Assembly: GCF_900172315.1 (NCBI RefSeq)
Contig: NZ_FWFV01000006.1
Location: 1-64,000 of the forward strand
Origin: Palleronia marisminoris
GTDB lineage: Bacteria > Pseudomonadota > Alphaproteobacteria > Rhodobacterales > Rhodobacteraceae
Length of the DNA: 64,000 nucleotides
Direction: 5' to 3'
Shown: positions 22,318 to 40,343 of the stretch, one piece after another
Layout: each line of letters opens with the position of its first letter
How positions within the stretch are numbered: position 1 is the first letter of the stretch
The notes under the pieces: model-generated
The model's input: the letters and a program-made list of their open reading frames with translations, nothing else
The model's database searches: none
What the model was told of the DNA's origin: nothing
Position numbers and translations under genes: made by a program

Positions 22318-23310
22318 ATGCCCAACGGGCCCCGCCGTCTATATCGTATCGCGATGGAAACCGATGCCGAGATCCCGCTCAGAACCAGATCGGCCGCACT
22401 TGGGCCGGGATTGGGCTGGCGCGCTTGGCTCGGGGCGGCACGGGCCGTGTTCATGGACCTCAACGACAGCAATATCGGGCTGATCTCGGCCGGGGTCGCG
22501 TTTTTCGGGATGCTTGCCATCTTTCCCAGCCTCGCGGCCATCATCGCGATCTGGGGCTTCGTCGCCGATCCCGACACGGTGTACGAGCAACTCAGCACCA
22601 TGCGCGGCCTCATGCCCGGCGACGCATACGCCATCCTGGACGAGCAGATCACGTCGCTCATCACGGCCAACACCTCGACCCTGGGGTGGACCACCGCGAT
22701 TTCATTGGCCGCGGCCATCTGGTCGTCGCGGGCGGGGGTGGCGGCGCTGATCCGGGGGCTGAACTCGATCTACCGCGAGAAGAACCGCGTCGGCGTGCGC
22801 CAAGTCGCCGCCGCCTTCGGGGTGACGTTCCTGCTGATCGGCGTGGCGCTGGTCGCGCTGCTGTCGGTCGTGGTGCTTCCCATCATCCTGTCGATCCTGC
22901 CGCTGGGGCCGCTGACCACGCTGCTGGTGGCAAGCGTGCGCTGGGTCGTCGCGCTAGCCGTGGTGATCACCGGGATCGGCGTCGTGTATCGCTATGGCCC
23001 GAACCGTCGTCGGCCACGGGTGCAATGGCTGACGCCGGGTGCGCTGGTCGCGGTCGTGATCTGGGGCTGCATTTCCTACGGGTTCAGCTACTACCTGTCG
23101 AATTTCGGCCGCTACAACGAGGTCTACGGCGCATTGGGCGCCGTCATCGCGCTGCTGATGTGGCTGTATCTGAGCGCCTTCTCGGTGCTTCTCGGCGCGT
23201 CGCTCAATGCCGAGCTGGAGCGTCGGACCCGCCAGGACACGACCGTCGGGAAGGATCGCCCGATGGGGCAGCGTGGGGCGGCCGCGGCGGACATCTATAT
23301 CGGCGACTGA
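22318..23310 (+). CDS. YihY/BrkB-family membrane protein
   Basis: A 330-residue inner-membrane protein with about six transmembrane helices (for example around 55-80, 118-140, 160-190, 203-225, 235-260, 265-290). Family landmarks are LISAGVAFFGMLAIFPSLAA at the first helix, RGLNSIYREKNR in the central loop, and YGALGAVIALLMWLYLSAF near the end. The YihY (formerly RNase BN) family has no agreed function; relatives are linked to virulence or envelope processes. ATG at 22318 is used; ATG at 22354 (METDAE) is an alternative. It is convergent with the Crp/Fnr regulator, with stop codons next to each other. Confidence 0.88.
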   Translation: MPNGPRRLYRIAMETDAEIPLRTRSAALGPGLGWRAWLGAARAVFMDLNDSNIGLISAGVAFFGMLAIFPSLAAIIAIWGFVADPDTVYEQLSTMRGLMPGDAYAILDEQITSLITANTSTLGWTTAISLAAAIWSSRAGVAALIRGLNSIYREKNRVGVRQVAAAFGVTFLLIGVALVALLSVVVLPIILSILPLGPLTTLLVASVRWVVALAVVITGIGVVYRYGPNRRRPRVQWLTPGALVAVVIWGCISYGFSYYLSNFGRYNEVYGALGAVIALLMWLYLSAFSVLLGASLNAELERRTRQDTTVGKDRPMGQRGAAAADIYIGD

Positions 23311-24042
23311 TCACATCAGCGGGCGCTCTTTCAGCAGGACGCCCGGCGAGGCCATGGCAAGCTTGTTCAACCCGTCGAGGTCGTGGATCGTCAGTTGACG
23401 GCCCATCCAGGTGGCAAGCTGGCGCTCGCGCAGCTTCGCCAGCGTCTTGTTCGTATGCACGAGCGACAGTCCCAGCGTGTCGGCGAGGTCCTGCTGGCGA
23501 AACGGAAAATCCAGCGTCGTGCCCTGGGTCATTCCGAGGTGCCGCGCACGCTCGAATATCTGGACGAGGCCCCACGCGATCCGCTCGATCGCCGAACGCT
23601 GACCGATGCTGGCAAGAGCTTCGCCCAGGAAATGCTCTTCGGTGGCCGCAATCCAGGTGACGTCGTAGGCCCGCGATGGCTGGTTTGCGAAGACAGAGAA
23701 GAATTCGGAGCGTTCGAAAACGCAGAGGCGCATCGGCGTCGTGGCCTCGACGCTGTGACCCATATGCGCCCCGAAGGCCGCCTGCAGGCCAAGGAAATCG
23801 CCCGGCATCACGAAGTTCAGAACCTGCCTGCGGCCGTCGTCGAGCGTCTTGAACCTCAGCCCCATGCCGTCGAGCACGGTGTAGAGCCGCGGCGACGGTT
23901 CGCTCTCGACGAGGATCGGGGCACCGGGCGGGATCTCGATCTCGCCGGACTTGAAGTCCCGCATGAATTCGAGCTCGTCTTCCGTCATCGTCTGGAACAG
24001 AGGGTTGGCCCGGAGCGGGCAGTTCCGGCAGTCGATCGCCAT
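23311..24042 (-). CDS. Crp/Fnr-family transcription regulator
   Basis: A 243-residue regulator with an N-terminal cyclic-nucleotide-binding-type beta barrel (about 20-140, including PPGAPILVESEPSPRLYTVL and MPGDFLGLQAAFG) and a C-terminal winged helix (about 150-230) whose recognition region is FRQQDLADTLGLSLVHTNKT. Only two cysteines, Cys5 and Cys8 (DCRNCPLRANPLF), are at the N-terminus, so a complete oxygen-sensing FNR iron-sulfur site is not evident. The start ATG at 24042 has a strong GGGAGA ribosome site; the open frame extends to 24090 but without one. Target genes are unknown. Confidence 0.85.
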   Translation of the reverse strand: MAIDCRNCPLRANPLFQTMTEDELEFMRDFKSGEIEIPPGAPILVESEPSPRLYTVLDGMGLRFKTLDDGRRQVLNFVMPGDFLGLQAAFGAHMGHSVEATTPMRLCVFERSEFFSVFANQPSRAYDVTWIAATEEHFLGEALASIGQRSAIERIAWGLVQIFERARHLGMTQGTTLDFPFRQQDLADTLGLSLVHTNKTLAKLRERQLATWMGRQLTIHDLDGLNKLAMASPGVLLKERPLM

Positions 24043-24178
24043 CGAATCTCTCCCGCCACAGAACGTGCTCGACTTAAGAACGTGAAACACATGGCAAAAT
24101 CAACCCTTCGGGCTGTTCCAACCCGCCCGATGTGTTGAAAATGAGAGAAACTCGTTCCGAGTCGCGCGAAAGAGAGGG

Positions 24179-24202
24179 GGCACCCTCGCCCCCTCGGGTG
24201 CC
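24179..24202 (-). terminator. Hairpin after the holin-like gene
   Basis: A 7-bp stem (GGCACCC with GGGTGCC) has a 10-base loop and touches the stop codon of the holin-like gene. On the minus strand it is followed by a CT-rich stretch rather than a clean T run, so it is a weak intrinsic terminator candidate separating this pair from the Crp/Fnr gene. Confidence 0.4.
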
Positions 24203-24606
24203 TACGGCCGGTCGCGCCTGCGCACCGCGCGGCCGGCGGCAATCCCCATGACGACCGCGTTTATGATCGTCGCCGCAGTCAGCGGCGACCCGGCCACGGG
24301 GCCAGCCATTGGATCGACCATCGGGTCGCGAATGGGCGCGGCAGTCGGGCGCGGGGCAACCCGGGGCGGATAGCGCGACCAAGCCCGCACGGCGATCCCG
24401 AACAGGATCAGCGCGAAACCCGCGATCAGCAGGGCCGCCACGACGCCCACGGCCTGCGCCAGCAGGATCAAGAGCGCGATGCCGAAGAACACCACCCCAA
24501 GAAGGATCAGCATCCCTCCGGCGGCGCCCCAGGTCGCACGGCGCAAATTCGCCCTGAGCATAAGCTTCAGAGCAGCGATCTGAGGTCCGAGCAGGGATCC
24601 GAGCAT
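24202..24606 (-). CDS. Holin-X-like small membrane protein
   Basis: A 134-residue protein with a short cytoplasmic start, two closely spaced transmembrane helices (about 28-50 and 55-75, GGMLILLGVVFFGIALLILL and VVAALLIAGFALILFGIAV), a proline-rich linker, and a small hydrophobic C-terminal segment. This matches the phage-holin-3-6 / Act-Holin-X family common in non-phage bacterial loci. It lies four bases after a DUF883-like gene, and that pairing is common in proteobacteria, where both proteins are thought to bind membrane or ribosomes in stress or stationary phase. The function is not established. Confidence 0.7.
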   Translation of the reverse strand: MLGSLLGPQIAALKLMLRANLRRATWGAAGGMLILLGVVFFGIALLILLAQAVGVVAALLIAGFALILFGIAVRAWSRYPPRVAPRPTAAPIRDPMVDPMAGPVAGSPLTAATIINAVVMGIAAGRAVRRRDRP

Positions 24607-24610
24607 GCGG

Positions 24611-24916
24611 TCAGCGGCGGCTGAAGAGGCCGATCAGCAGTCCGACGCCCGCAGCGATGCCAAGCGCCTGCGTGGGGTTCTGCCGCACATAGACCTCGAC
24701 TTCGTCCATCCGACCCTGCGCCTGGTCACGCAGCCCCTCGGCGCGGCGCTGCGCCTCGGTCCGGTATTGCTGGCTCTTGGCCTTTCCGAACTCGCCCAGC
24801 GACTCGGTCAGGCGCGAGATGTCCGCCTTCAGGGCATCGACCTGCCGGGCAAGATCCTCGGTCGTGGGATTCCGGGTGGTCGGGTCCATGTCTTCGGATG
24901 TCACGGGTCGCACCAT
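24611..24916 (-). CDS. DUF883 (ElaB/YqjD-like) membrane-anchored protein
   Basis: A 101-residue protein with a long amphipathic helix (about 18-75, LARQVDALKADISRLTESLG onward) and a single C-terminal membrane anchor (PTQALGIAAGVGLLIGLF-SRR). This architecture is that of the ElaB/YqjD/DUF883 family, inner-membrane proteins that bind ribosomes in stationary phase. ATG at 24916 has GAAAGG seven bases upstream; ATG at 24889 is an alternative. It is probably transcribed with the holin-like gene. Confidence 0.78.
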   Translation of the reverse strand: MVRPVTSEDMDPTTRNPTTEDLARQVDALKADISRLTESLGEFGKAKSQQYRTEAQRRAEGLRDQAQGRMDEVEVYVRQNPTQALGIAAGVGLLIGLFSRR

Positions 24917-25106
24917 GTTGCAGCCTTTCAGTGGAAGGTTCAATTCCTGGGCCCAATGCGGCCCGGCCCGCGTTGGTTCCACTCCAGCGCGAAGGGATCG
25001 CGCGCGAGCAAAGCCGGGCGACGACGCTGGGGAAAGCGCCGGAAAGCCCGCTATGTTCCCGGAACAACCGGGGCGCGCGGCGCTTTGGCCCGACAAGGAG
25101 GACCAG

Positions 25107-25709
25107 ATGACCGACCGATTGACACGCCTTCTAGGCGCCGAAGCCGTCAGCGGCGACGACCGCTTCCCGATCCGCGCGCTGTTCCACGAGCCGCAGACCC
25201 GCCGCCTGAAAGCCGCCGCCGTGGATATCGGCGGGTGGCTCGACCGCCGCGAGGTGATGGTTTCGCTCGATCGTTTCGGCCCTCCTGGCGACGACGGATG
25301 GCCCATGTCCCTCGGCCGGGACGAGCTGGAGGGCGCCCCCGAATGGGAGCATGCCGACGGCCTCGGCGCGGCGATGCCGCCGCTGATCGTCGGGCCCTTC
25401 GGATACACCTTCTCGCCCATGCTGATGGCCGCCGGGATGAACCGGTCCGCCGAGCGAAGCCTTCCCGACATCCCTGATCAAGCCGGGCCGGAACCGCTCG
25501 AAAGCGAAGACGGCCGGTTCGCGGGGCTTGAACGCTCGTCCGACTGGTTGGACCGCGATGCGTTCGGGCCGGACGGTCACATGGGCAAGGTCCACGACCT
25601 GGTGCTTGACGACCTGACGATCACCGCGCTGGTGCTTGACGGTGATCGCACCGTTCCGTTGTCGCGCCTGCGGCACATGGCGGAACAGGGGCACTTCGTC
25701 TTCGACTGA
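25107..25709 (+). CDS. PRC-barrel-like protein
   Basis: A 200-residue soluble protein preceded by an ideal ribosome site (AAGGAGG six bases before ATG 25107). Two repeats resemble PRC-barrel domains: residues about 18-60 (RALFHEPQTRRLKAAAVDIG, then WLDRREVMVSLDRF) and 145-195 (FGPDGHMGKVHDLVLDDL, then TVPLSRLRHM). PRC barrels often bind RNA or pair with membrane proteins under stress. The role is unknown. The gene is convergent with the amidotransferase gene; only three bases separate their stop codons, and no terminator is visible between them. Confidence 0.65.
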   Translation: MTDRLTRLLGAEAVSGDDRFPIRALFHEPQTRRLKAAAVDIGGWLDRREVMVSLDRFGPPGDDGWPMSLGRDELEGAPEWEHADGLGAAMPPLIVGPFGYTFSPMLMAAGMNRSAERSLPDIPDQAGPEPLESEDGRFAGLERSSDWLDRDAFGPDGHMGKVHDLVLDDLTITALVLDGDRTVPLSRLRHMAEQGHFVFD

Positions 25710-25712
25710 CGC

Positions 25713-26432
25713 TCAGGGCGCTTGCGGCGCCCCCGTATCCACCTGCGGCAGCTGTGCCTCTTTCCGGGACGCGGCCCGCGCGGCGCTGACCAGAGCCCGG
25801 AAGATCGCGCGCTGCCGATGGGCGTAGAACAGGTGCTCGGGATGCCACTGGACGCCCAGCGCGAAGGGCTCTTCCGTGCGCTCGACCGCCTGGATCATTC
25901 CGCCGGTATCGCGCGCGGCCACGCGCAACCCCTGCCCCAAGGTCGTCACCGCCTGGCTGTGCAGCGCGTTCACCTTCATCGGAACCGTGCCGGCATGGGC
26001 GGCCAGACGCGTCTGGGGGACGATTTCGACCGTCTTCCGGGGAAGGATGGTCCAGAACCTTTCGGACGTGGCGTAGGTGCCGTATGCATCCTGATCCAGC
26101 CGCCCGCCCAGCGCCACGTTCAGCATTTGCGAGCCACGGCAAATCCCCAGCACCGGCTTGCCCTGGGCCATCGCTTCTTCGACAAGACGCCGCTCCATCG
26201 CGTCCCGTTCGTCGTCCAGCGTGGACGACGTGATGAGCTGCCCGCCATAGAGATCGGGCGAAATGTCGTCTCCGCCGCCGATGATGATGCCGTCCACCTC
26301 CGCGACATCGGATGGCCGCCCCGCGACCCACCGCACGCCGCGCCCGCCGGCCAGCCAAAGGTTGAAGGCCACCAGCGGAAAGATCCGCCAGCCCGAGCGT
26401 GCCGAAGTCGTCACGCCGATCAGGGGTTTCAT
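25713..26432 (-). CDS. Class I glutamine amidotransferase (peptidase C26 type)
   Basis: A 239-residue enzyme that would release ammonia from glutamine or hydrolyse a gamma-glutamyl amide. The catalytic nucleophile is in VLGICRGSQMLNVALGG, and the His-Glu pair in LGVQWHPEHLFYAH; the N-terminal IIIGGGDDISPDLYGG is typical of the PuuD/C26 branch. ATG at 26432 is used because MKPLIGVTTSARSG matches the usual family opening. It overlaps the amidoligase gene by four bases, the pairing described for amidoligase clusters, in which the two enzymes are thought to make and break or feed amide bonds on a peptide. It ends the stress-locus operon. Confidence 0.88.
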   Translation of the reverse strand: MKPLIGVTTSARSGWRIFPLVAFNLWLAGGRGVRWVAGRPSDVAEVDGIIIGGGDDISPDLYGGQLITSSTLDDERDAMERRLVEEAMAQGKPVLGICRGSQMLNVALGGRLDQDAYGTYATSERFWTILPRKTVEIVPQTRLAAHAGTVPMKVNALHSQAVTTLGQGLRVAARDTGGMIQAVERTEEPFALGVQWHPEHLFYAHRQRAIFRALVSAARAASRKEAQLPQVDTGAPQAP

Positions 26433-27412
26433 ACGAAGGCCACCTCGCGGTCCAGCAATTCGCCCGACACGCTGTGCCAGCGCCCCGGAATGGGTAGAGA
26501 GCGGTTCCGGTAGGTCCGCCACGTCATCTTGAGCCGGTCCATCAGGTCGGCATCGTTCGCGATCTCTTCGACCATGCACCACCGGTTCCATTCAAGTGCG
26601 ATCGACCACGAGGGCTCGTCGATGCGGCAATCGGGCAGCCGGTAGTGCCAGGCAGGCCGGCCGCTCTTGCGTGCCATCTGCGGGACGGCCCGAGCCACGG
26701 CCTCGGGGTTCAGGTGCTTGAGGAGCGGCAGCGCGTCCAGCGCATGGTTCCGGTCGGGCGCGACCGAGAGGTAGGCATCCGTCAGCCGCTCGAAGGTCCA
26801 GTCGAGGCGCGAGTCGCAGAGCCGGTCCACCAGCTCGGACGGGTAGGTGTCCACGAAAGGCTGCACCCGCCGCGCCGCGTCGAGCTGCATCTTCTCGCGC
26901 ATCCAGTCCTCGATCAGCGCGAAGGCGGTCAGGGTCGGGAGGATGTCGTCCAGAGCGACGCCGGGGAGGGCCACGTTCAGGTGAACGCCGAACCCCAGAA
27001 GCAGTCCCGACTGGGTGCCGGTGCCACCGGCGGCGCTGAGGGCGCGGCACGCGCGGTCGACCTCGGCGATCTGCTCGGGCGGGATGGGAGAGGTCACGAA
27101 CTCCACCGGGATCACCGCGCGGCCAAGGTCGAGGCCCATGCGCGCTATCTGCCCCGCGACCCTGTCGCGCAGGGCAGTGTCCAGCAGGATGTCGATGTCA
27201 CCGATGGCGCTGCCTTCGACGCGACGTTCGTATTCGGCGGTCCGCCTGACCGTGCCGCCCAGCTGGTCCGCCAGGATCGCGCCGACGCGGTCCTCGTTCA
27301 AGCCACCCAGTTCGACCTCGATCCCGACCTTACGGATTTCACCGCCATGCGTCGTGGGAACGGGAAGAGACTTCAGATCCGGCATGGCCCACGAACGCGG
27401 CGTGGGGGGCAT
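26429..27412 (-). CDS. Amidoligase-family enzyme (Amidoligase_2)
   Basis: A 327-residue member of the amidoligase family, a glutamine-synthetase-like ATP-dependent amide-bond former. Visible landmarks are RKVGIEVELGGLNEDRV near the N-terminus (metal/ATP-binding first strand), the acidic GDIDILLDTAL segment, VIPVEFVTSPIPPEQIAEVD, and GFGVHLNVALPG. Family members join amines or amino acids to carboxylates on peptides or lipids; the substrate is unknown. ATG at 27412 is used; ATG at 27385 (MPDLKSLPVP) is an alternative. It is coupled to the amidotransferase by a four-base overlap and follows the phospholipase D-like gene by six bases. Confidence 0.85.
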   Translation of the reverse strand: MPPTPRSWAMPDLKSLPVPTTHGGEIRKVGIEVELGGLNEDRVGAILADQLGGTVRRTAEYERRVEGSAIGDIDILLDTALRDRVAGQIARMGLDLGRAVIPVEFVTSPIPPEQIAEVDRACRALSAAGGTGTQSGLLLGFGVHLNVALPGVALDDILPTLTAFALIEDWMREKMQLDAARRVQPFVDTYPSELVDRLCDSRLDWTFERLTDAYLSVAPDRNHALDALPLLKHLNPEAVARAVPQMARKSGRPAWHYRLPDCRIDEPSWSIALEWNRWCMVEEIANDADLMDRLKMTWRTYRNRSLPIPGRWHSVSGELLDREVAFV

Positions 27413-27418
27413 CGTTCC

Positions 27419-28960
27419 CTAGACCAGCTCTTCGGGCACGCCCGGCAGATTGGTCCCGAAACTCGCGGCGATCGACACGTCGTAGGGCAGCAGGTAGCCC
27501 CCACGGTTGTCGGGCTGGCGCACCGCGTCAAGCTCGGCCTGCTCGCGGACCTGCGGGACGAGAGGCGCGTCATGGTCGATCGGGGTCTCGGGCAGCCAGT
27601 GGGTCATGGACCGCCGCAGGATCTGATCCGCAAGGGCAGAATCCTCGCGCCGGATGCCGGCCTCGGTATCCCAGCGCAGCGACCTTGCGTTGAGGTTGGC
27701 TGAACTGACGATCATCGACCGACGGTCGAAGACGCTGACCTTGGCGTGCACATAGACAAGCGGCGCACCCCCGAAGGTCGAGCGATCGTCCTCGTCCATC
27801 GGACCGGCTTGCGCCGTGCGGCGCTGCACCGGCACCGCGAAGAAACAGCGATCGCCGAACGCCTCCATCACGCGCGAGACGCACTGGGCCTGCAAGTATT
27901 CGCCATAGCGCGAGTCGAGCTTGCGCCGACGCTCGAACGCCACGTCCTCGGGGGCCGCGGGCAGGATCATCAGGAACTCGGCTTCAGGCATCTCCTTGCC
28001 GCGGGCGGCAAGCGCGTCGGCCAGCTTCAGGTCGCGGAAGAACTGCGTCTCGAAGTAGAACTGCCGCTCGGTCCGCGCGATCTCGGCGTAGTGGTTGTCG
28101 CCGATCGAGTTGCGGACGATCGCGGGCGCCATCGAGAAGTGGGTGCTCCGCCACGCCGTCAGGGTCGTGCAGAAGCCGCCGGCCTCTTCGGGGGGATCCG
28201 ACTTGCCCGCGACGGAGTCGAGCATGTTGTCCAGATGGGCCTCGGCCGCCGTTGCGGCCACCTTGTCCCGCACGAGAACCTGCACGTCATGCCACGTCTC
28301 TTCGGCCGAGCGGTGGTGGAGCGGCGTGTCGTAGCGCCGCGGGTTCAGGTCGAGCCCGCCGATATAGAGCACCTCTCCGTCGAACACCGCCAGCTTCTGG
28401 TGGTGCGTCACAGGGTTCAGCCGCGGCGGGCCCATTGCGTACACCTCGAGCTTTCCGTCAGCGTCGAAGCGCAGCCAGTCATGGGTGCCCGGCAGATCCG
28501 CGAAGCTCTGGCGGCGTCGCTCCGCGGGATAGTCGTTCAGGACGTCGCACAGGTCGTGCAGCTCTTGCCGGGCCTTGGGCCAAAGCGCCGCGCGCGGGAG
28601 CTCTCCGACCTCGGCCGGGTGCATGGCCGCGACGATGGAGAGCGGCGCCTCGGGGCCGGCGAGTTCGCGCAGGACCGCGAACTTGCGCATGCTCGACCAC
28701 GTCAGCTCGTGCATGTCCGGGGCGGCGATGGGTTCGAAATCCGAAAGGATCAGGTCGAACCGGACGCCCTTGCCCAGCACGTGAAGGATCAGGTCGAACC
28801 AATCCTCGCCGATCGCCTTGGCCTCGTCGGTCCTGAGCCCGGTCGAGGGGTCGAACACCCGAAAGCCCGCGGCGATACGGGTTTTCGCGCGCAGCATCTC
28901 ACGCTCGAAGGCCGGCCAAGCTTCGCCCGCCGTCAGGAGATACTCGACATCGCCGCTCAT
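27419..28960 (-). CDS. Phospholipase D-like protein
   Basis: A 513-residue protein with two HKD motifs: THHQKLAVFDGEVLYIGGLD (about residues 186-205) and YVHAKVSVFDRRSMIVSSAN (about 400-420). Both His-Lys-Asp sets are intact, so it should be an active phosphodiesterase or phosphatidyltransferase. There is no signal peptide (MSGDVEYLLTAGEAWPAFE), which argues for cytoplasmic or membrane-surface action. It overlaps the sensor kinase gene by four bases and so belongs to the nepR-ecfG operon. Cardiolipin synthase activity cannot be excluded, but that group usually carries N-terminal membrane helices. Confidence 0.85.
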   Translation of the reverse strand: MSGDVEYLLTAGEAWPAFEREMLRAKTRIAAGFRVFDPSTGLRTDEAKAIGEDWFDLILHVLGKGVRFDLILSDFEPIAAPDMHELTWSSMRKFAVLRELAGPEAPLSIVAAMHPAEVGELPRAALWPKARQELHDLCDVLNDYPAERRRQSFADLPGTHDWLRFDADGKLEVYAMGPPRLNPVTHHQKLAVFDGEVLYIGGLDLNPRRYDTPLHHRSAEETWHDVQVLVRDKVAATAAEAHLDNMLDSVAGKSDPPEEAGGFCTTLTAWRSTHFSMAPAIVRNSIGDNHYAEIARTERQFYFETQFFRDLKLADALAARGKEMPEAEFLMILPAAPEDVAFERRRKLDSRYGEYLQAQCVSRVMEAFGDRCFFAVPVQRRTAQAGPMDEDDRSTFGGAPLVYVHAKVSVFDRRSMIVSSANLNARSLRWDTEAGIRREDSALADQILRRSMTHWLPETPIDHDAPLVPQVREQAELDAVRQPDNRGGYLLPYDVSIAASFGTNLPGVPEELV

Positions 28961-30672
28961 GGTTCGTCGGCGAATTCGCTGGGCATGAAGGTCACGTCCA
29001 CGACGAAGGCCCCGTCGGTCTCGCCGATCTCGCTACGGGCATCCAGTTGCATGGCGAAGGCGCCCATCAGCTGAGTCCCCAGCCCCGTCGTGGTGCGGCT
29101 TTCGTCGCTGAGCGGATCGCCGAGCGAGTTCGCGACCCGCAGCTTCACCTCGCCGCTCGGAAGCGCCGCCAGCTTCAGCTCGATCCAAGGCTCGCCTTCC
29201 GCCGGCCGGCCCACGTATTTCATGGCGTTCGTCATCGTCTCGGTGACAAGCAGGGACAGGGGCACGGCCTGGTCGGGATACAGCGACACCGGGTCCACCG
29301 AGATGTCCAGCTTGACCCCCTGCTTGACCACCTCGGAATTGCGCAGGCTCTGCGCGACCAGCTCTTCGATGAGCTGGGACGAATTCACCCGGCTCAGCAC
29401 CGACGCCTGGTAGAGGTTGCGGTGGATCGTGGCGAGGCCCAGCACCCGGTCCTGCAGACGGCGCAGGATGAAGCGCGTCTCGTCGTGGGTCGCCTTCCTG
29501 AGCTGCATGTTCATCATCGACGCGATGAGCTGGAGGTTGTTCTTCACCCGGTGGTGAACCTCCTTCAGCAGGACGTCCTTCTCGTGCAGGTTGTTCTCCA
29601 GGTCGGCCTCGTCGCGAACGATCCGTTCGGTCATCTGGTGGAACGCTTCGATCACCTCTCGCAGGTCCGAGGGCGTGTCCGCCGCGTATGTCGGCGCCAT
29701 GATGCGGCGGTTCGCCGTGAACGCGCGGATCCGCAGGCGGAGGTAGCGGATGTGTCGCACGACAAGGCGGTGCACGGCGAAATAGGCCACGCCGATCGAC
29801 ACCAGCCACATCAGGATCGGGAACAGGATCGCGCTTGCCGCGGTCAGGCCCGAGGTGCGGATCGCGTTCGCCGGCCAGATCGCAAGCGCGTAGATCTCGT
29901 TCTGGATCAACGGGGCCACGGTGTAGAACCGCTCCTCTCCCGAGACAGCATCGCTGCGGAAGCTCACCGTCTCTTCGCCGGCAAGTGCCGTCAGGGCGCG
30001 GTCCGCGGGCAGCGCAAGTTCAAGCGCCTCGAGATCGCCGTCCGCCCAGAGGATCTCGCCCGACTCGGTGAATGTCGTGGTGAATATCGGATCGAGCCCC
30101 ACGTTCCGCGCCGTGGGCAGCCTGAGGCTCTGCTGCGGGACCGACATGGCGATATACCCGATCGGCACCTCGTTCACGACCACCGGCTCGGTAATGACCA
30201 CCACGCTGCGTTGCGAGATCTTTCCGACGACGGCCTCGATCTGGGGGACCGGATCATCGAGATACGAGCGGTAGGCATCGGTATCCCGAACGTCGGTGCC
30301 TGCCCCGTCCGAGGCGCAGACGGCATATCCGTCCGCCGACACGAATCCCGCGAAGGCAATCGTCTTGCTCGACCGGACGAAATTCTGCATCCGCTCGGAA
30401 CATAGGGTCGGATCGTTCAGGATCGTCGGCGCGAACTCGGCCGCCATCTGCGCCGCGCCCCGCACGCGCAGCAGCGTCTCGCGCTCGGTCGTGGCGGCGG
30501 ACAAGGTGACGCCGGTCAGCGCGGCCTCGGCGGTGCGGTCGGCCTCGCTGATCACGCGGTACGTCTGCACCATCGCGATCAGTCCGATCGGCAGGAGCGC
30601 GAGGCCCAGAAGCGCCACGAGCCTCACATCCAGCCGGTCGAGGCCGTTGATCCCGCCGCCACCGCTCAGCAT
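28957..30672 (-). CDS. Membrane sensor histidine kinase (HisKA_2 type) of the general stress response
   Basis: A 571-residue kinase. Transmembrane helices at about 18-38 and 276-300 enclose a periplasmic sensory domain (residues 40-275, Cache-like). A linker follows, then a dimerisation domain with the HisKA_2 motif LLKEVHHRVKNNLQL, the phospho-acceptor being His373 or His374, and a C-terminal ATPase domain with ETMTNAMKYVG as N box and TGLGTQLMGAFAMQL as G box. Kinases of this class phosphorylate PhyR in alphaproteobacteria. It begins one base after the ecfG stop codon, supporting that role. The signal is not evident. Confidence 0.92.
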   Translation of the reverse strand: MLSGGGGINGLDRLDVRLVALLGLALLPIGLIAMVQTYRVISEADRTAEAALTGVTLSAATTERETLLRVRGAAQMAAEFAPTILNDPTLCSERMQNFVRSSKTIAFAGFVSADGYAVCASDGAGTDVRDTDAYRSYLDDPVPQIEAVVGKISQRSVVVITEPVVVNEVPIGYIAMSVPQQSLRLPTARNVGLDPIFTTTFTESGEILWADGDLEALELALPADRALTALAGEETVSFRSDAVSGEERFYTVAPLIQNEIYALAIWPANAIRTSGLTAASAILFPILMWLVSIGVAYFAVHRLVVRHIRYLRLRIRAFTANRRIMAPTYAADTPSDLREVIEAFHQMTERIVRDEADLENNLHEKDVLLKEVHHRVKNNLQLIASMMNMQLRKATHDETRFILRRLQDRVLGLATIHRNLYQASVLSRVNSSQLIEELVAQSLRNSEVVKQGVKLDISVDPVSLYPDQAVPLSLLVTETMTNAMKYVGRPAEGEPWIELKLAALPSGEVKLRVANSLGDPLSDESRTTTGLGTQLMGAFAMQLDARSEIGETDGAFVVDVTFMPSEFADEP

Positions 30673-30673
30673 G

Positions 30674-31249
30674 TCAGCCCTGCCGGGACTGACGCGACTG
30701 CGAAGACGCTATGATCGAGTCGTTGGTCGTATCTCCGATGACCGGGTCTTCGTCCGGGTCGAGCCCCATGAGCTCGGCCAGGCGCCGGCGACCACGGTTG
30801 GCACGGCTCTTGATCGTGCCGACGGCGACGCCGCACATATCGGCGGCTTCCTCGTAGGCAAAGCCGCTGGCTCCCACGAGCATCAGCGCCTCGCGCTGCT
30901 CGTCGGGCAACTGCTCGAACGCCTTGCGGAAGTCGTTCATCGCCAAGCGGCCGTCGTGCGCCGGCTTTTCCGACAAGGAGGCGGCCATGGCACCGTCCAC
31001 GTCCGCAACCTCTCGCTTCGCCTTGCGGCGGATCGAGTAGAAGGCATTGCGCTGGATCGTGAACAACCATGCACGGAGATTGGTGCCCGGTTGGAACTTG
31101 TCCATGTTCTTCCAGGCTTTCTCGATCGTGTCCTGCACCAGGTCATCGGCCGCGGCCGAATTTCTGGTCAGGGACATGGCGAAAGCTCGGAGCGCGCCCA
31201 GATGTTCGACAAGCTCGTCCCGGGGATCGCGATGCACGCCATCAGCCAT
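30674..31249 (-). CDS. ecfG: General stress response sigma factor EcfG
   Basis: A 191-residue ECF sigma factor (EcfG group). Region 2 is LGALRAFAMSLTRNSAAADD followed by LVQDTIEKAWKNMDKFQPGT, and region 4 is FEQLPDEQREALMLVGASGF with the recognition helix in GVAVGTIKSRANRGRRRLAE. It directs RNA polymerase to GGAAC-N16/17-GTT promoters, which occur three times in this window. NepR holds it inactive until phosphorylated PhyR takes NepR away. It overlaps nepR by eight bases and is followed directly by the sensor kinase gene. Confidence 0.95.
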   Translation of the reverse strand: MADGVHRDPRDELVEHLGALRAFAMSLTRNSAAADDLVQDTIEKAWKNMDKFQPGTNLRAWLFTIQRNAFYSIRRKAKREVADVDGAMAASLSEKPAHDGRLAMNDFRKAFEQLPDEQREALMLVGASGFAYEEAADMCGVAVGTIKSRANRGRRRLAELMGLDPDEDPVIGDTTNDSIIASSQSRQSRQG

Positions 31250-31406
31250 CCGAGTCCCTCTCGCTGGTGCCGTCCTGGTTCTTCAGTTTTGCAAGAAGCT
31301 CCTTGAAACGATCAGGGATGTCCTCTTCGTTGTTCTCGAAATAGACACGACGGAGATTTTCGTCGATCTGCCGCATCACGTTCGACGTCTTGTTGTCTTT
31401 CGACAT
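31242..31406 (-). CDS. nepR: Anti-sigma factor NepR
   Basis: A 54-residue anti-sigma factor. The conserved NepR core is present: VMRQIDENLRRVYFENNEED, then IPDRFKELLAKLKNQ, two helices that clamp EcfG or, alternatively, the sigma-like domain of PhyR. It starts with ATG at 31406 and overlaps ecfG, so the anti-sigma and sigma factors are made in a fixed ratio. Its promoter faces phyR in a shared 31-base element. Confidence 0.95.
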   Translation of the reverse strand: MSKDNKTSNVMRQIDENLRRVYFENNEEDIPDRFKELLAKLKNQDGTSERDSDG

Positions 31407-31449
31407 AAGTTGGATGCCACTCAGCTGATTTGATTTTTTGCGCACGCTT

Positions 31450-31475
31450 GGAACCAACGTGCCTTCTAACTGTTT
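31450..31475 (+). promoter_or_regulatory. EcfG-type promoter of phyR
   Basis: GGAAC at 31450-31454 is followed after 17 bases by GTTT at 31472-31475, matching the EcfG consensus. The phyR start codon is about 40 bases downstream, so phyR is expected to be activated by the sigma factor it releases. Confidence 0.85.
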
Positions 31476-31480
31476 GTTCC
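31456..31480 (-). promoter_or_regulatory. EcfG-type promoter of nepR-ecfG
   Basis: On the minus strand GGAAC (31480-31476) is followed after 17 bases by GTT (31458-31456). It uses the same bases as the phyR promoter in mirror image: each promoter's -35 is the complement of the other's -10 region. It drives nepR, whose start codon is about 50 bases downstream. Confidence 0.85.
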
Positions 31481-31513
31481 AAAATAAATGTGCGACTAGG
31501 GACTTATATCATC

Positions 31514-32338
31514 ATGCCATCACGGTCCGAGCAGGTCGATCTCTCAGAGGTCATCGGAGACGAACTTCCTTACCTTCGCAGGTACGCCCGCGCGTTGACC
31601 GGGTCCCAGCGAACCGGTGACAACTATGCCGCCGCCACACTGGAAGCAATCCTGCAGGAACCGGGGATCTTCGAACGATCTCTCGCCCCGAAGACGGCGC
31701 TGTTCCGCGCGTTCCACATGATCTGGTCCACGGCCGGCGCGCCCACGGCCGATACCGAGGACCCGGCGAACCGGCTGGAAAGCCGCGCCCTCGACCACAT
31801 GGCGGGCCTGACGAACAACACCCGCGAAGCGCTGCTGCTGTCGACGATCGAAGGGTTCGACTTCGACGAGATCGGCCGCATCATGGATGTCGACGGGGAC
31901 GAGGCGTCGTCGCTGGTAGATATCGCCATCACCGAGATGGAGAAATCGATGACCGGCAAGGTCATGATCATCGAGGACGAGGCGATCATCGCGATGGACA
32001 TCCACTCCATCGTGTCCGAGATGGGCCACAAGATCACCGGCATCGCCCGGACCCGCGACGCGGCGGTCGAACTTGGCGCCCGCGAGAAGCCCGACCTGAT
32101 CCTCGCCGACATCCAGCTGGCGGACAATTCCTCGGGCATCGACGCGGTGAACGACATCCTCGCGCAGTTCGGGGACATCCCGACGATCTTCATTACCGCC
32201 TTCCCCGAGCGTCTGCTGACCGGCGACAAGCCCGAGCCGGCCTTCCTGATCGCCAAGCCCTACTCGGAGGAACAGGTGCGCTCGGCGGTGAGCCAGGCGA
32301 TGTTCTTCTCGTCGACGGAGTCCCTCAAGGCGAACTGA
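31514..32338 (+). CDS. phyR: General stress response regulator PhyR
   Basis: The anti-anti-sigma regulator, 274 residues. Residues 1-145 are a sigma-factor mimic (DELPYLRRYARALTGSQRTG and the region-4-like NTREALLLSTIEGFDFDEIG). Residues 149-265 form a receiver domain with the acidic pocket in MIIEDEAIIAMD, the phospho-acceptor Asp199 in LILADIQL, and Lys248 in LIAKPYS. On phosphorylation it binds NepR and frees EcfG. ATG at 31514 has AGGGA about 11 bases upstream. It is divergent from nepR-ecfG and shares its promoter element, and a strong terminator follows. Confidence 0.96.
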   Translation: MPSRSEQVDLSEVIGDELPYLRRYARALTGSQRTGDNYAAATLEAILQEPGIFERSLAPKTALFRAFHMIWSTAGAPTADTEDPANRLESRALDHMAGLTNNTREALLLSTIEGFDFDEIGRIMDVDGDEASSLVDIAITEMEKSMTGKVMIIEDEAIIAMDIHSIVSEMGHKITGIARTRDAAVELGAREKPDLILADIQLADNSSGIDAVNDILAQFGDIPTIFITAFPERLLTGDKPEPAFLIAKPYSEEQVRSAVSQAMFFSSTESLKAN

Positions 32339-32356
32339 GCGAACGGCGATCCGACG

Positions 32357-32392
32357 AAAAAGGGCGACCCTTCACAGGGGTCGCCCTTTTTT
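32357..32392. terminator. Bidirectional intrinsic terminator between phyR and the DUF1328 gene
   Basis: A 12-bp stem (AAAGGGCGACCC with GGGTCGCCCTTT) has a 7-base loop, T residues follow on the plus strand and A residues precede it. It can stop transcription from both convergent genes. Confidence 0.9.
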
Positions 32393-32418
32393 CATGGCCC
32401 TGAGTGGCCGCAAGCGCC

Positions 32419-32601
32419 CTAGCGCATGTCGTCGGAATCGTGCTCGTGCGCCATTTTCGCGGCAACCAGCACAAGTGCCACGCCCAGGAAGACGAAAAAG
32501 AGGGTCTGGGCCACGCCAGCGACGAGCGTCGCCTGTCCGCCGAAGCCGAACAGACCCGAGGTGAGTGCAACGGTAAATGATACGTATGCCCAATAGATCA
32601 T
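32419..32601 (-). CDS. DUF1328-family small membrane protein
   Basis: A 60-residue membrane protein with two transmembrane helices (MIYWAYVSFTVALTSGLFGF and TLFFVFLGVALVLVAAKM) joined by a glycine-rich turn, and a short charged tail (HEHDSDDMR). The LFGFGG turn is the DUF1328/YtjA signature. ATG at 32601 is chosen because it matches the family start and has GGGAAA upstream; the frame extends to 32634 without support. The function is unknown, but an EcfG promoter about 40 bases upstream puts it in the general stress regulon. Confidence 0.85.
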   Translation of the reverse strand: MIYWAYVSFTVALTSGLFGFGGQATLVAGVAQTLFFVFLGVALVLVAAKMAHEHDSDDMR

Positions 32602-32639
32602 GTCGCGTTTCCCAACATTCCACTCCCCCCGCATGGAGA

Positions 32640-32716: not shown

Positions 32717-35700
32717 TTAATAGTCGCGTTCGAAGAACACCCCCAGGGACGTCTCTCCCTCGTTCGACGCGGCTCCGCGTACGGTGATCGAGTCGGTGAC
32801 GTCGAGGTTCAGGTTGATCTCGGCCTCACCCTCGGAGTCGACGTTCACGCTGGAATAGACGTTCTCGGACAGGTAGGCGCCGGCCTGCAGCCCCACGTTG
32901 CCTTCCTCGTCCGTCGTCACGTCCAGATCATCGAGGCCCGTGGACTCCCTCAGGTTCTCGATGATGCCGATGCCGCCCCGGCCCGACAGGGTCGCCACGG
33001 CATTCGCCAGCTGCGCGGCCTGCAACGCCGAGATGTTGTCGATCGACCGGCCGAAGAGCAGCCGTGACAGCACCTCGTCCTCGGGCAGCTCGGGCTCGGA
33101 CGAGAAGGTGATGTCGGGTTCGGTCGCTTCGCCCTCGACGATGATCAGCACCGTGACGTCGTCGTCGGTCTCGGTCCGCGCAACCAGGCGGATCGTCGGA
33201 GTGAAATCGCCCGCCAGCGTCACGTAGCCCTCGGTCAGGGTGATCCGCTGGCCCAGCAGGTCGATCCGACCCCGGATCAGCTCGAACCGCCCGGTAGGGA
33301 TGACGTTCGCCGTGGTCCCGCCAAGCGTCAGCTGGCCGCCAAGCTCGGCGTCGAGGCCCCGCCCGCGGACGAAAATCTGGTCTTCCGCCAGGATCGTCAG
33401 GTCCAGCCCATAGACGACGGCCGGGCCCGCATCGGCCTCGGCATCCTCCGCGTCGACCAGATCGGCACGGGCGCGCGTGCGATAGACGTCCTTGGGTTCG
33501 TTCACATGGACCAGCCCGGCCGGGATCGGTCCCGTCGCCCCCAGCCCCGTCGACGGCACCCGGATCTCGGTCTGGCCCAGGATCACCGTCCCGCCAATCA
33601 CGGCACCCCCGGTCAACGGCCCGGTCAGCGTGACCCGGCCATTCGCGACGGTCCGGTAGAGGCGGGGATCCTCGACCACCACCCGGTTCAGTTCCACCCC
33701 CAGATCGGCAGGGTAGCCGCCCGACAGGCCAATGGTGCCGGCAAGCGCGAGCGTGCCCCCCTCCTGCTTGTCGGCGGTGACGTTCAGGACCACCTGGTCG
33801 CCCTGAATCTGCGCGGTCCCGTTGATGTCGTTCAACACGAACGGCACGCTGGGATCGACGAGCCGCCCGCCCGAGACGGTCACCGTCCCACCAAGCGAGG
33901 TCAAAGCTAGCGGCCCGTTCAGGCTGAGGTCGTAGCTTGCCGTCCCGCTGAGCGCGCGGTTGCCCAGATACGGGTTCGCCAGCCGCAGGGGCGCGTCGCC
34001 CGTGATGTCGATATTCGCCTGATTGAAGCTTTCGGCGACCGTACCGTCGATCCGCGCGGTCAGACCCTGCGGCCCCGTTAGCGCCACGTCGAGCGTGATG
34101 TTCGACCCGGATTGCCCCACACTTCCCTGCGCCGTCACCGGGCCGCTAAAGTTGGGCACATAGGCACCAAGATCCGCCAGCCGCGCGTCGAGGGTCAGGT
34201 TGCTCGCCCCGCCCAGGATCGCGCCGTTCGCCTGCGCGTCGAGGCCCGGCGCGTCGAGCTGGAAGCGCTGCACCTGGATCGGCGCGTTCGGGCCGCTTCG
34301 GCTGGCTTCGGCGGTCAGGGTCGTCGTGCCGCCCGACAGAAGCTGATCGACCTGCGGCACCCCAACGCGCAGGTTGTTGGCCTGCGCATTCGCCGTCCCG
34401 TCGAACCGGCTGCCGTCCAACGCTGCCTCTCCCTCGGCCTCAAGGGTCACGGAGCCCGACAGCGACCTGCCGGCCAGACGCGAAAAGCGCGAAATGTCCT
34501 GCGCCTGCAGGTTCACCCGGCCATCGAAGGCCGGCGTGGCGTCGAGGTTGCTCACCTCGCCCAGCAGGTCCACGACCACGCCCGCGCCGTCGCCGTCCAG
34601 CGCGACCTGCCACGCATCGCCGGTCTCTTCGGCCACGAGGTTGACGGTCGCACGCCCCGACAGCTCGGGAAGCACATCCGACAGCTCGGCGACAGTCACG
34701 TTGGCCTGCAGAGCGTTCGCATCCGGCCCGCCATAGCTGCCTTCGGCCACGGCGTTGATCTGCGGGTTTTCCACCTGCAATGTCTCGATCTGCAGCGTCT
34801 CGCCATCCTTTTCCGCCGCCACGTCGAAGGTCGTCAGCCCTTCGAGCAGCCGGTCGACCTCCGGCTGACCGATGGCAAGGTTGCGGGTCGTGCCGCTGGC
34901 CTCGACCGCCGCTTCGCTCAGATCGAACCGGGTGCGGCCGTCCAGCGACAGGTCCACGGCGCCACCCAGTTCGCGGTTCGCAATCCGGGAGAACACGCTC
35001 AGATCATCCACCTCGACCTCGGCCGTGCCATCGACAAGGGGAGAGACCCCCTCGGTCCGCAGATCCTCGACCGTCGCATCGGCCACGATCTGCGCGCCGG
35101 CCCCGGTGGCATCCACATCCAGCGACCAGACGTCCCCGTCCTCGGTCGCGTCGAGGATGATCGTCGCGGGGCCGCGCATCTCGGGGATCACGTCCCCCAG
35201 CTCGTCCAGTTCCACCTGCAACCGCGCCGAGCTGTCGCCGGGATTGATATCGCCCTGGCCTTGGACGGAGATCTGCGGGTTCTCGAGCGTCAGCTCGTTC
35301 ACGTCGATCGCGTCGCCGTCCTTCGCCGCGTCGATGCTCAATTCGGTCACGCCGGACAGCAGCCGGTCCACCTCTTCAATTCCGATCTCGAGATTGCGCG
35401 CCGTTCCCTCGGCGTCGATCGCTGCCTCGCTCAGGTCGAACCGACCACTGCCGGTCAGGGACATATCTACCGTCCCGCCCAGTTCGCGGTTCGCGAGCGA
35501 CGAGAAGACACTCAGATCATCCACCTCGACCTCGGCCGTGCCGTCGACAAGGGGAGAGACCCCCTCGGTCCGCAGATCCTCGATCGTCGCGTCGGCCACG
35601 ATCTCTGCGCCGGCGCCCGAGGCGTCCACGTCCAGCGTCCAGACATCCCCCTCCTCGGTCGCGTCGAGGGTGATCGTCGCCGGGCCTTGCATTTCGGGGA

Positions 35701-38530: not shown

Positions 38531-38540
38531 TTGACCCACC

Positions 38541-40343
38541 TCAGAACGCCTGTCCGATACCCACATACACCTGGAACGAGCTTTCGTCGTCCTCGTCATC
38601 GAAGCTGCTGACCGGCGTCGCCACGTCCAGCCGGATCGGCCCCACCGGCGTCTGGTACCGGAGGCCCAGCCCCGCCCCCGCATGGCTGCGCTCGCCGTCG
38701 GGGAACGCGTCGTAGCCGACCGTGCCGTAGTCGTAGAAGCCCACCAGCCCGATCTTTTCGGTCAGTCCGGCGCGGACTTCAGCCGACGCGACGACATAGC
38801 TCGCCCCGCCCGAGCGGATTCCGGAATCGAGCTCCACGCCCAGGGACTGGTACTCGTGTCCGCGCACGGTTCCGCCGCCGCCCGAATAAAAGCGGTACTC
38901 GTTCGGCACGGCTTCAAGCTCGGCGCCGATGATCGAACCGCCCTGCAGCCGGCCCGCCAGGACGAACCGGTCATCCTCGCCGAAGCCGAGATAGCTGCGC
39001 CCGTCCCAGGTCAGCCGCGCGCCGGTTCCGGTCTGATCGTTCGTGCCAAGGAAGGGCGTCAGGGTCGTGTCGAGGAAAAAGCCGTCTGTCGCGTTCAGTG
39101 GGTTCTCGCGGTTGTCGAAGGTGGCCGACAATGGCGCGATCAGCATGCTGTAATCGGTCGTGCCGCTCTCGTCCTCGACGCGGCTGAACCGGTAGCCGAG
39201 GCCGTACTCGATCTCGATCTCTTCATTGACGTAGCGGTGGATGCCGAAGGTCAGCTCGCCCGCGTCCGAGGTGTAGTCCTCTTCGTTCAGGCGCGCGACG
39301 GCGGCCTCGGCGAAGAAGGTGTTCTCGGGCGCGAAGGTCGCCGGACGCTCGAACCGGGCGCCCAACTCGTAGTCGCGGCCACCGGTCCCGCCGCCGAGGC
39401 CGGAAATCTCGCCGTCCAGCCGCAGCCGCTCGGCCCCGCCGAGCAGGTTGCGATGCAGCCAAAAGCCCGACAGCGTCAGCCCGTCCACGGTCGAGACCTC
39501 GGCGCCGAAGCCGATCCGGCGGGGCGGGAACGCGACGAGGTTCGCCTCTACATCCAAACGGTCGTTCGGGGTCAATGTCTCGGCCTCGGTCAACGCGACG
39601 GTCGAAAAGACCTGCGTGCGCCGGATGCGCCGGGTCACGTCGTCGAGCTTGTCGGGGCTGTAGATTTCGCCGGCGGGAAAACCCGCGATCGCGCGCAGGC
39701 GCTCGGGGCGGACCGCTTCACTGCCGGTCAGGATCAAGTCTCCGAACCGCACCAACGGCCCCGGCGCTATGTCGATATCGGCGGCAAGCTGGTTCTCTTC
39801 GTGCTGCGCCACGACCTGCTGGTCGCCAACCTCGGCCTTGGCATGGCCAACCTCGCGCCACGCCAACACCGCGCTTTGCGCCGCGTCGCGGATCGTGCCG
39901 GACTCCGCCGGCTCTCCCACCGTGAACCCGTCGGGGATCTCGGTCTCGGGGGCCAGCGGGCCCAGCTCGGTCTGCGAGAAGGGATAGACGGGGCCGGGCT
40001 GCACATCGACGGTGATCGTGTCGATCTGCTGCAGCCGGGTCAGCGGAGACAGGGCGGCGGCCTCCTGCCCGTCGATGTAGATGTGGATCACCGGCCCGTA
40101 GCGCCCGGTGGAGTACAATGCGCCCACCAATCGCGCGTAGTCGGCCCGGGCTGCGGCCAGAAGCTCGGTCGCGTCGGTCACGTCCTCGTTCTGGGCTGCG
40201 ACCAGAAGGGAAGCATTGCGTAATGTCCGTTCGAGATCTTCGTTGCCCCCCCGGACGACGAAACGAAGCTCGTCGAAGGCCCATGCAGGCGCCCCAAGGC
40301 AAAGAACGGCGAGCCCCACCCCACCGACCAAGCGTCTCGTCAC
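38541..40343 (-). CDS. tamA: Translocation and assembly module outer-membrane protein TamA
   Basis: An Omp85-family outer-membrane barrel of 600 residues. After a signal peptide (to about residue 23, APAWAF) are POTRA domains (about 25-270, for example VDVQPGPVYPFSQTELGPL and PGPLVRFGDLILTGSEAVRP), then the 16-strand barrel (about 280-600) ending in the typical aromatic-terminated strand VYVGIGQAF. FYSGGGGTVRGHEYQSLG holds the conserved VRGY/F-like motif of loop L6. It starts with GTG at 40343 and precedes tamB by 10 bases as one operon. Confidence 0.93.
   Translation of the reverse strand: MTRRLVGGVGLAVLCLGAPAWAFDELRFVVRGGNEDLERTLRNASLLVAAQNEDVTDATELLAAARADYARLVGALYSTGRYGPVIHIYIDGQEAAALSPLTRLQQIDTITVDVQPGPVYPFSQTELGPLAPETEIPDGFTVGEPAESGTIRDAAQSAVLAWREVGHAKAEVGDQQVVAQHEENQLAADIDIAPGPLVRFGDLILTGSEAVRPERLRAIAGFPAGEIYSPDKLDDVTRRIRRTQVFSTVALTEAETLTPNDRLDVEANLVAFPPRRIGFGAEVSTVDGLTLSGFWLHRNLLGGAERLRLDGEISGLGGGTGGRDYELGARFERPATFAPENTFFAEAAVARLNEEDYTSDAGELTFGIHRYVNEEIEIEYGLGYRFSRVEDESGTTDYSMLIAPLSATFDNRENPLNATDGFFLDTTLTPFLGTNDQTGTGARLTWDGRSYLGFGEDDRFVLAGRLQGGSIIGAELEAVPNEYRFYSGGGGTVRGHEYQSLGVELDSGIRSGGASYVVASAEVRAGLTEKIGLVGFYDYGTVGYDAFPDGERSHAGAGLGLRYQTPVGPIRLDVATPVSSFDDEDDESSFQVYVGIGQAF

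Follow-up and report, generated by a model that had tools for sequence, protein, structure and literature searches.

The window analysed here is a stretch of 64,000 nucleotides from Palleronia marisminoris (Rhodobacteraceae; genome size 3.75 Mb), in which the genes of the alphaproteobacterial general stress response (GSR) run on into genes for an amidoligase (AmL) and a glutamine amidotransferase-like hydrolase (GAT). Six genes lie on the minus strand in the order nepR, ecfG, HisKA_2 kinase, phospholipase D (PLD)-superfamily gene, AmL and GAT, with phyR divergent from them. The initial annotation had placed the same six genes consecutively, and domain scores recovered every one. The features are as follows.

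31242–31406, minus strand: nepR, anti-sigma factor (Pfam NepR, 49.5 bits; cut-off 25.7)
30674–31249, minus strand: ecfG, general stress sigma factor (Pfam Sigma70_r2 and Sigma70_r4_2 above cut-off; NCBIfam NF009198, 315.1 bits; cut-off 270)
28957–30672, minus strand: HisKA_2/HWE sensor histidine kinase, PhyK-like (HisKA_2, 71.7 bits; cut-off 22.3)
27419–28960, minus strand: PLD-superfamily protein (Pfam PLDc_2 and PLDc above cut-off; two HxKx4D motifs, residues 187 and 405)
27394–27418, minus strand, sense to AmL: EcfG-type promoter GGAAC-N16-CGTT in the PLD–AmL gap, its −10 box ending 8 nt before ATG 27385
26429–27385, minus strand: AmL, Amidoligase_2 (PF12224), 318 aa from the supported start (160.2 bits; cut-off 22)
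25713–26432, minus strand: GAT, C26/class-I glutamine amidotransferase-like hydrolase (Pfam Peptidase_C26, 160.8 bits; cut-off 20.5)
31514–32338, plus strand: phyR, GSR anti-anti-sigma response regulator, divergent (NCBIfam NF006623, 351.9 bits; cut-off 240)
31456–31480, minus strand: EcfG box GGAAC-N16-CGTT 5' of nepR, 49 nt before the nepR ATG and so leadered
31450–31474, plus strand: EcfG-like box GGAAC-N16-TGTT 5' of phyR, overlapping and divergent

All domains by which the six genes are named scored above the Pfam cut-offs. The profile scores and the divergent phyR bear out the assignment of the first three genes to the GSR core: PhyR, NepR and EcfG are all present, with phyR divergent from nepR–ecfG. 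The kinase carries the HisKA_2 domain and scored 223.4 of 750 bits against the PhyK equivalog of NCBIfam, under the cut-off; its dCache_1 match was also under cut-off. The reading frames overlap by 8 bases at nepR/ecfG and by 4 at both kinase/PLD and AmL/GAT, and a single base separates ecfG from the kinase.

Two ATG codons are candidates for the start of AmL, that at 27412, used in the initial annotation, and that at 27385. Among 24 other full-length relatives from the family, the AmL match begins at query residue 10 (equivalent to ATG 27385) or later in 15, and at residues 2–8 in nine. In an alignment of six close sequences, of which the window's is one, every sequence has ATG 27385, while ATG 27412, which falls inside the EcfG box, is found in two and absent from four. 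With AmL starting at 27385, the PLD–AmL gap is 33 nt and has room for the box; the earlier statement that gaps and overlaps are at most 8 bases thus holds for the other four junctions and fails at this one. The AmL start is likely mis-annotated here, and the starts of genes with similar leaderless geometry may be too.

The box in the PLD–AmL gap has the same form as the box before nepR. The pattern used for the search, the EcfG consensus, occurred four times in the window against 1.12 expected, a count reached in two of 100 shuffles. That count alone would not exclude a chance origin of the PLD–AmL box; its conservation and spacing do. In the footprint over the six close sequences, the letters of GGAAC, GTT and CATG never change while those of the spacer vary; the spacer is 16 or 17 nt long. 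For RpoE9 of S. meliloti, the motif is placed 9 nt 5' of the transcription start site (TSS), with an accepted range of 5–12 nt (PMC3616915); about 9 nt between the end of a −10 box and +1 is an ordinary distance. Since the gap from box to ATG is 8 nt, +1 would be expected on or next to the A of the AmL ATG.

The promoter was compared across 105 AmL loci (window included), which were reduced to 95 non-redundant loci at 90% identity. Named relatives are the best 80 of 576 confirmed, and the set leans to close relatives. One further locus (L052), in the ecfG-bearing genome G143, holds an AmL remnant with a stop codon and was excluded. A strict box was present within 200 nt 5' of AmL, in sense, in 18 of the 95 loci; the expectation derived from other windows of these loci was 0.77, and one box was in antisense. 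Loci without a GSR gene gave 8 of 57 (0.13 expected; antisense none), and the relaxed box was found in 24 of 95 (1.21 expected). In 15 of the 95 loci, three of which have no GSR gene, the box ([CG]GTT) ends 8 nt before the in-frame AmL ATG; no other distance from 0 to 40 nt occurs more than twice. The combination of strict box, 8 nt and ATG was found at 12 of 95 AmL loci, compared with 5 of 52,335 other ATGs of the same loci. A Shine–Dalgarno (SD)-like motif was seen at none of 16 loci with an 8-nt box (any xGTT) and at 29 of the 79 others (p 0.002); this comparison is partly built in, as the box takes up part of the region in which an SD motif would lie. AmL–GAT of the window's lineage has the conserved 5' EcfG-type promoter expected of a member of the EcfG regulon.

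The same spacing recurs elsewhere in this genome. The genome has 70 EcfG boxes and 36 copies of the reversed pattern; an ATG follows at 8 nt in nine cases for the box and in none for the reversed-pattern control. There are 34 box-to-ATG pairs at 0–24 nt, with 8 nt in nine and any other distance in at most three (by eye). All nine 8-nt sites open reading frames (ORFs) of 108–360 aa. Their products include an M48 peptidase, CHAD, a deaminase, DUF4112, an AI-2E transporter and NAD-binding domains, and two are without a Pfam match. The eight sites other than AmL are on contigs C9, C15, C17 and C22 of the genome (L164–L171). Four orthologues keep the geometry in G061, the sole same-genus genome in a 150-genome sample of Rhodobacteraceae: AmL, NAD_binding_10 (66%), CHAD (58%) and the AI-2E transporter (67%). 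The DUF4112 gene keeps it in G138.

Across the 150 family genomes, the 8-nt geometry is in excess only where ecfG is present. The pattern gave 132 sites in 72 genomes with ecfG and 49 in 78 without, the corresponding controls being 30 and 39 for the reversed pattern and 47 and 50 for an 11-nt gap (Mann–Whitney on site counts, p 1e-6 for 8 nt and 0.94 for 11 nt). For 29 sites that were read, nine from this genome and all 20 non-AmL sites from four relatives picked for many 8-nt sites (6, 6, 6 and 4), frames of at least 100 codons were opened in 23, versus 31% of other ATGs.

AmL was detected in 26 of the 150 family genomes (the window's included; one is a fragment). GAT adjoins AmL in 22 of 24 other full-length family loci and in 88 of the 95 non-redundant loci, so the pairing of amidoligase and class I amidotransferase noted initially is borne out. 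phyR or ecfG is present in 38 of the 95 AmL loci; in 12 of the 95, shorter than 15 kb, GSR linkage could be hidden. In 29 of these 38 GSR-linked loci, AmL follows the kinase or PLD in the same orientation at a distance of up to 900 nt; the other nine are arranged differently. PLD stands between kinase and AmL in 10 of the 29 and elsewhere in the locus in L048, L050, L130 and L132. Because PLD is an optional part of the operon and can lie elsewhere, it is probably a separate stress effector. The link between AmL–GAT and the GSR, put forward in the initial annotation, is recurrent.

AmL is found variously downstream of the kinase, of PLD or of ecfG, and in divergent or convergent orientation. 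On a quick AmL tree, in which the rows of L048 and L125 are long and unsure, at least three linkage changes are forced by starred branches and 12 are counted by parsimony; linkage is clustered (none of 500 shuffles as low). A clade of this tree (Natronohydrobacter, Roseibaca, Roseinatronobacter and G032; L049, L123, L127, L128 and L131) is without an adjacent GAT match. Matches to ecfG (E up to 1e-30) were found in 23 of 25 genomes with full-length AmL versus 49 of 125 others (Fisher p 9e-7), G143 being counted among the latter; with G143 as an AmL genome the figures are 24 of 26 and 48 of 124.

Among 289 alphaproteobacterial genomes, AmL is present in 21, of which 19 are of other families. 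GAT adjoins AmL in 18 of these 19 loci, and none of the 19 has a GSR gene match or a strict box. Weaker xGTT forms lie between −371 and +4 in four of them, and L204, one of the 19, has a relaxed GGTT box 125 nt 5', away from the 8-nt spacing. The linkage thus survives a check in related genomes within Rhodobacteraceae and is absent outside the family. On this reading, the AmL–GAT pairing would be old and would have come under stress control in Rhodobacteraceae. Genes of the GSR locus apart, no further enzyme was seen to accompany AmL–GAT with the regularity of GAT among the 60 largest neighbour clusters, which were built with a crude ORF caller, inspected by eye and in some cases are antisense artefacts. 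An upstream gene was taken for rlmN in 14 loci.

The protein sequences indicate what the pair may do. AmL belongs to Amidoligase_2 by its score, and E23, E25, E95, H135, N137, R172, R212, D217, R243, H247 and R249 are invariant in 25 sequences. These polar residues, which we take to be typical of the active sites of glutamine synthetase (GS) and gamma-glutamylcysteine synthetase (GCS), are acidic and basic in a way that would suit a GS/GCS-type ligase. No solved relative of AmL was found by sequence at E up to 10. The AlphaFold2 model of AmL (mean pLDDT 91.2) gave YbdK and glutamine synthetases as its best matches among PDB entries in Foldseek. GAT is a member of the C26/class-I amidotransferases by its family score and a triad, Cys98, His197 and Glu199, that is invariant in 23 aligned sequences. 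Its model (mean pLDDT 85.0) is nearest to the uncharacterised Lin1909 and then to the hydrolases SpuA and PuuD, which come ahead of GMP-synthase-type glutaminases; against the NCBIfam equivalog for the PuuD gamma-Glu-GABA hydrolase it scored 77 of 266 bits, below the cut-off.

PLD is assigned to its superfamily by the two HxKx4D motifs and the family score. A DISARM-type PLD (DrmC) was considered and rejected at 40.4 of 133 bits, below the NCBIfam equivalog cut-off. By hydropathy, no membrane-length hydrophobic segment was found in PLD, AmL or GAT (best 19-residue means 1.15, 1.68 and 0.86, compared with 2.39 for the kinase). The stress-triggered envelope pathway that had been suggested for the three proteins is thus not supported, although PLD could still act on the inner leaflet.

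The surroundings of the GSR core were also inspected. The EcfG boxes of nepR (minus strand, CGTT) and phyR (plus strand, TGTT) overlap at 31450–31480 and are nearly palindromic, and overlapping divergent pairs are also seen in L036, L044 and L045. The operon is flanked (22318–25709 and 32419–32634) by YihY, a CRP-like regulator, holin-like, DUF883-like and DUF1328 genes and a PRC-like ORF without a Pfam match; YihY, CRP, DUF883 and PRC were named by eye. YihY, CRP, holin, DUF883, PRC and DUF1328 genes recur around the GSR operon in relatives. At 32717–38683 lies an internally repetitive ORF of 1,988 aa that, judged by eye, is TamB/translocation-module-like.

The explanation that best fits these results overall is that in Rhodobacteraceae AmL–GAT became an effector of the PhyR–NepR–EcfG response, which we consider probable. 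The genes, their conserved linkage, the promoter, its spacing and the lack of an SD motif are read from the sequence; transcription and its leaderless start we infer from them. Control of AmL–GAT by EcfG is very probable in this lineage, and a leaderless AmL–GAT transcript is likely. Under stress, PhyR would release EcfG from NepR, a partner switching that is established (PMC5830050). Polymerase with EcfG would then initiate on the AmL ATG or no more than two bases from it, and the resulting leaderless AmL–GAT mRNA would be translated independently of an SD site. Transcription reading through from the nepR promoter may contribute further AmL–GAT message. AmL and GAT would act in the cytosol, where AmL, as a GS/GCS-like ATP-dependent carboxylate-amine ligase, is predicted to form an amide, probably the gamma-glutamyl amide of some amine, and GAT, as a PuuD/SpuA-like enzyme, would hydrolyse an amide. 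The simplest joint reading of the two enzymes is a pair that makes and breaks a gamma-glutamyl (or similar) amide. This assignment of reaction and substrate, as a gamma-glutamyl ligase and hydrolase, is offered tentatively.

A wider proposal, to which we give somewhat less than even chances, is that EcfG in Rhodobacteraceae has a leaderless sub-regulon, in which boxes fixed 8 nt before ATG would commit a group of stress genes to leaderless mRNAs. Its members might include AmL–GAT, CHAD, DUF4112, the AI-2E transporter, the M48 protease, the NAD-binding protein and others; AmL–GAT would be a conserved one, with a possible role in the reversible gamma-glutamylation of an amine during stress.

Several observations weigh against these readings. 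Even a relaxed box is lacking within 200 nt 5' of AmL in 71 of the 95 loci, including 45 of 57 without a GSR gene and 21 of 29 inside a GSR operon, so that control by an own promoter is not established for most AmL genes, and in those 21 read-through would have to serve. Four of the 20 8-nt sites from the four relatives open frames of fewer than 60 codons and look like chance. GAT is missing next to AmL in seven of the 95 loci, one of which is truncated by a contig end, and two AmL genomes (G021 and G090) have no ecfG match. The lack of a GSR link outside the family implies that stress was not the original setting of AmL–GAT. The structural matches of AmL are weak (best E 2.7e-3, TM 0.23). Finally, the PhyR cascade of R. 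sphaeroides serves mainly in membrane stress (PMC5830050), so in this family "general stress" may cover less than the name implies.

Part of this evidence would also fit a single six-gene mRNA from the nepR promoter that makes all the products, with the box at 27394–27418 unused. The initial annotation had favoured one EcfG-controlled transcript; given the conserved EcfG-type promoter at the PLD–AmL junction, the transcript is not necessarily single. In favour of a single mRNA are the starts and stops that overlap, the perfect EcfG box before nepR, the 21 of 29 GSR-operon loci in which AmL follows kinase or PLD with no relaxed box within 200 nt, and the SD-like motifs of 9 among the 25 GSR-linked loci that do not have the 8-nt promoter. 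Moreover, no sigma-70 promoters or terminators above chance were found in 24500–32500 (three terminator-like sites, 3.9 expected). Nevertheless, the window's clade has kept the box with its 8-nt spacing, both are seen again in three AmL loci without a GSR gene, and the window's AmL start has no SD-like motif. A single mRNA is improbable, and an unbroken operon was rejected as the whole story on account of the conserved internal promoter. That the GSR link reflects positional hitchhiking in a conserved region, with no functional meaning, is very unlikely: the clustering of linkage on the tree and the 57 of 95 loci that show no GSR gene would suit it, but GSR and AmL meet in several different arrangements, EcfG boxes precede unlinked AmL genes far above expectation, and AmL co-occurs with ecfG.

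For the chemistry, the main rival to a make-and-break pair is glutamine-fed amidation, in which GAT would free ammonia and AmL would load it on a peptide or metabolite carboxylate, as in MurT–GatD but with a predicted GS-fold synthetase. The near-obligatory adjacency inside and outside the family, the intact triad of GAT and its much higher conservation (mean column identity 69% in 23 sequences versus 46% in 25 for AmL) are in its favour. The proximity of GAT to Lin1909, SpuA and PuuD, ahead of the glutaminases, points the other way, as do six loci that keep AmL without a GAT match despite 2.8 to 10 kb of following sequence (L123, L127, L128, L131, L049 and L051). On balance, an amidating enzyme appears rather unlikely.

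If AmL–GAT is a stress effector, general stress offers a physiological context in which this uncharacterised enzyme pair can be tested, and the range of substrates to consider becomes narrower. A further prediction is that the mRNAs of a defined gene set have no leader owing to a single alternative sigma factor, which would link stress transcription to leaderless translation. If the sub-regulon exists, transcription under stress would feed a translation that needs no SD site, perhaps an advantage while normal initiation is held back. Both predictions are testable in culturable Palleronia and other roseobacters. Among the literature matches listed, open-licence papers represented mostly by titles and abstract starts, none joined an amidoligase with EcfG or described leaderless EcfG promoters. 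In the main text of the S. melonis EcfG paper (PMC6599016), words that begin with amidoligase, amidotransferase, phospholipase, cardiolipin or glutamyl do not occur.

The locus resembles the known alphaproteobacterial GSR in its core genes, divergent phyR and EcfG box, and the histidine kinase next to ecfG has a counterpart in R. sphaeroides (PMC5830050). It differs in that the operon continues into PLD–AmL–GAT, with an internal EcfG-type promoter of leaderless spacing. Pairs of Amidoligase_2 and GATase, with the PF12224 ligase beside a class-I GAT, were reportedly surveyed by Iyer et al. in 2009 (Mol Biosyst, doi 10.1039/b917682a); the gene pair is the same, and here it is tied to a stress sigma factor, a link that the survey is not known to describe. 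PuuA–PuuD and SpuI–SpuA carry out polyamine gamma-glutamylation with a GS-type ligase and a C26 hydrolase. AmL–GAT likewise joins a predicted GS-type ligase to a C26 hydrolase, the GAT model being nearest to Lin1909 and then to SpuA and PuuD, but AmL is of another family, its neighbourhood holds no recurrent third enzyme and the PuuD cut-off is not reached. MurT–GatD acts in peptidoglycan amidation (PMC3267633, PMC5871853). It is also a two-gene ligase and glutamine amidotransferase, although MurT is Mur-ligase-like whereas AmL appears GS/GCS-like. GatD is moreover another GAT type.

Leaderless mRNAs are themselves known in Alphaproteobacteria, with 171 described in S. meliloti, all starting with AUG (PMC3616915), and 375 in Caulobacter (PMC4117421). 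According to PMC4842269, no specific promoters had been described for leaderless genes; sigma-E2 promoters are counted per TSS class in PMC3616915. The S. meliloti and Caulobacter TSS tables may hold single leaderless EcfG cases. A TSS at AUG, as predicted here, agrees with those mRNAs; the present case differs in the constant 8 nt between the ATG and the −10 box of a single stress sigma factor. Amidoligase–GAT pairs, the GSR and leaderless mRNAs are each already known.

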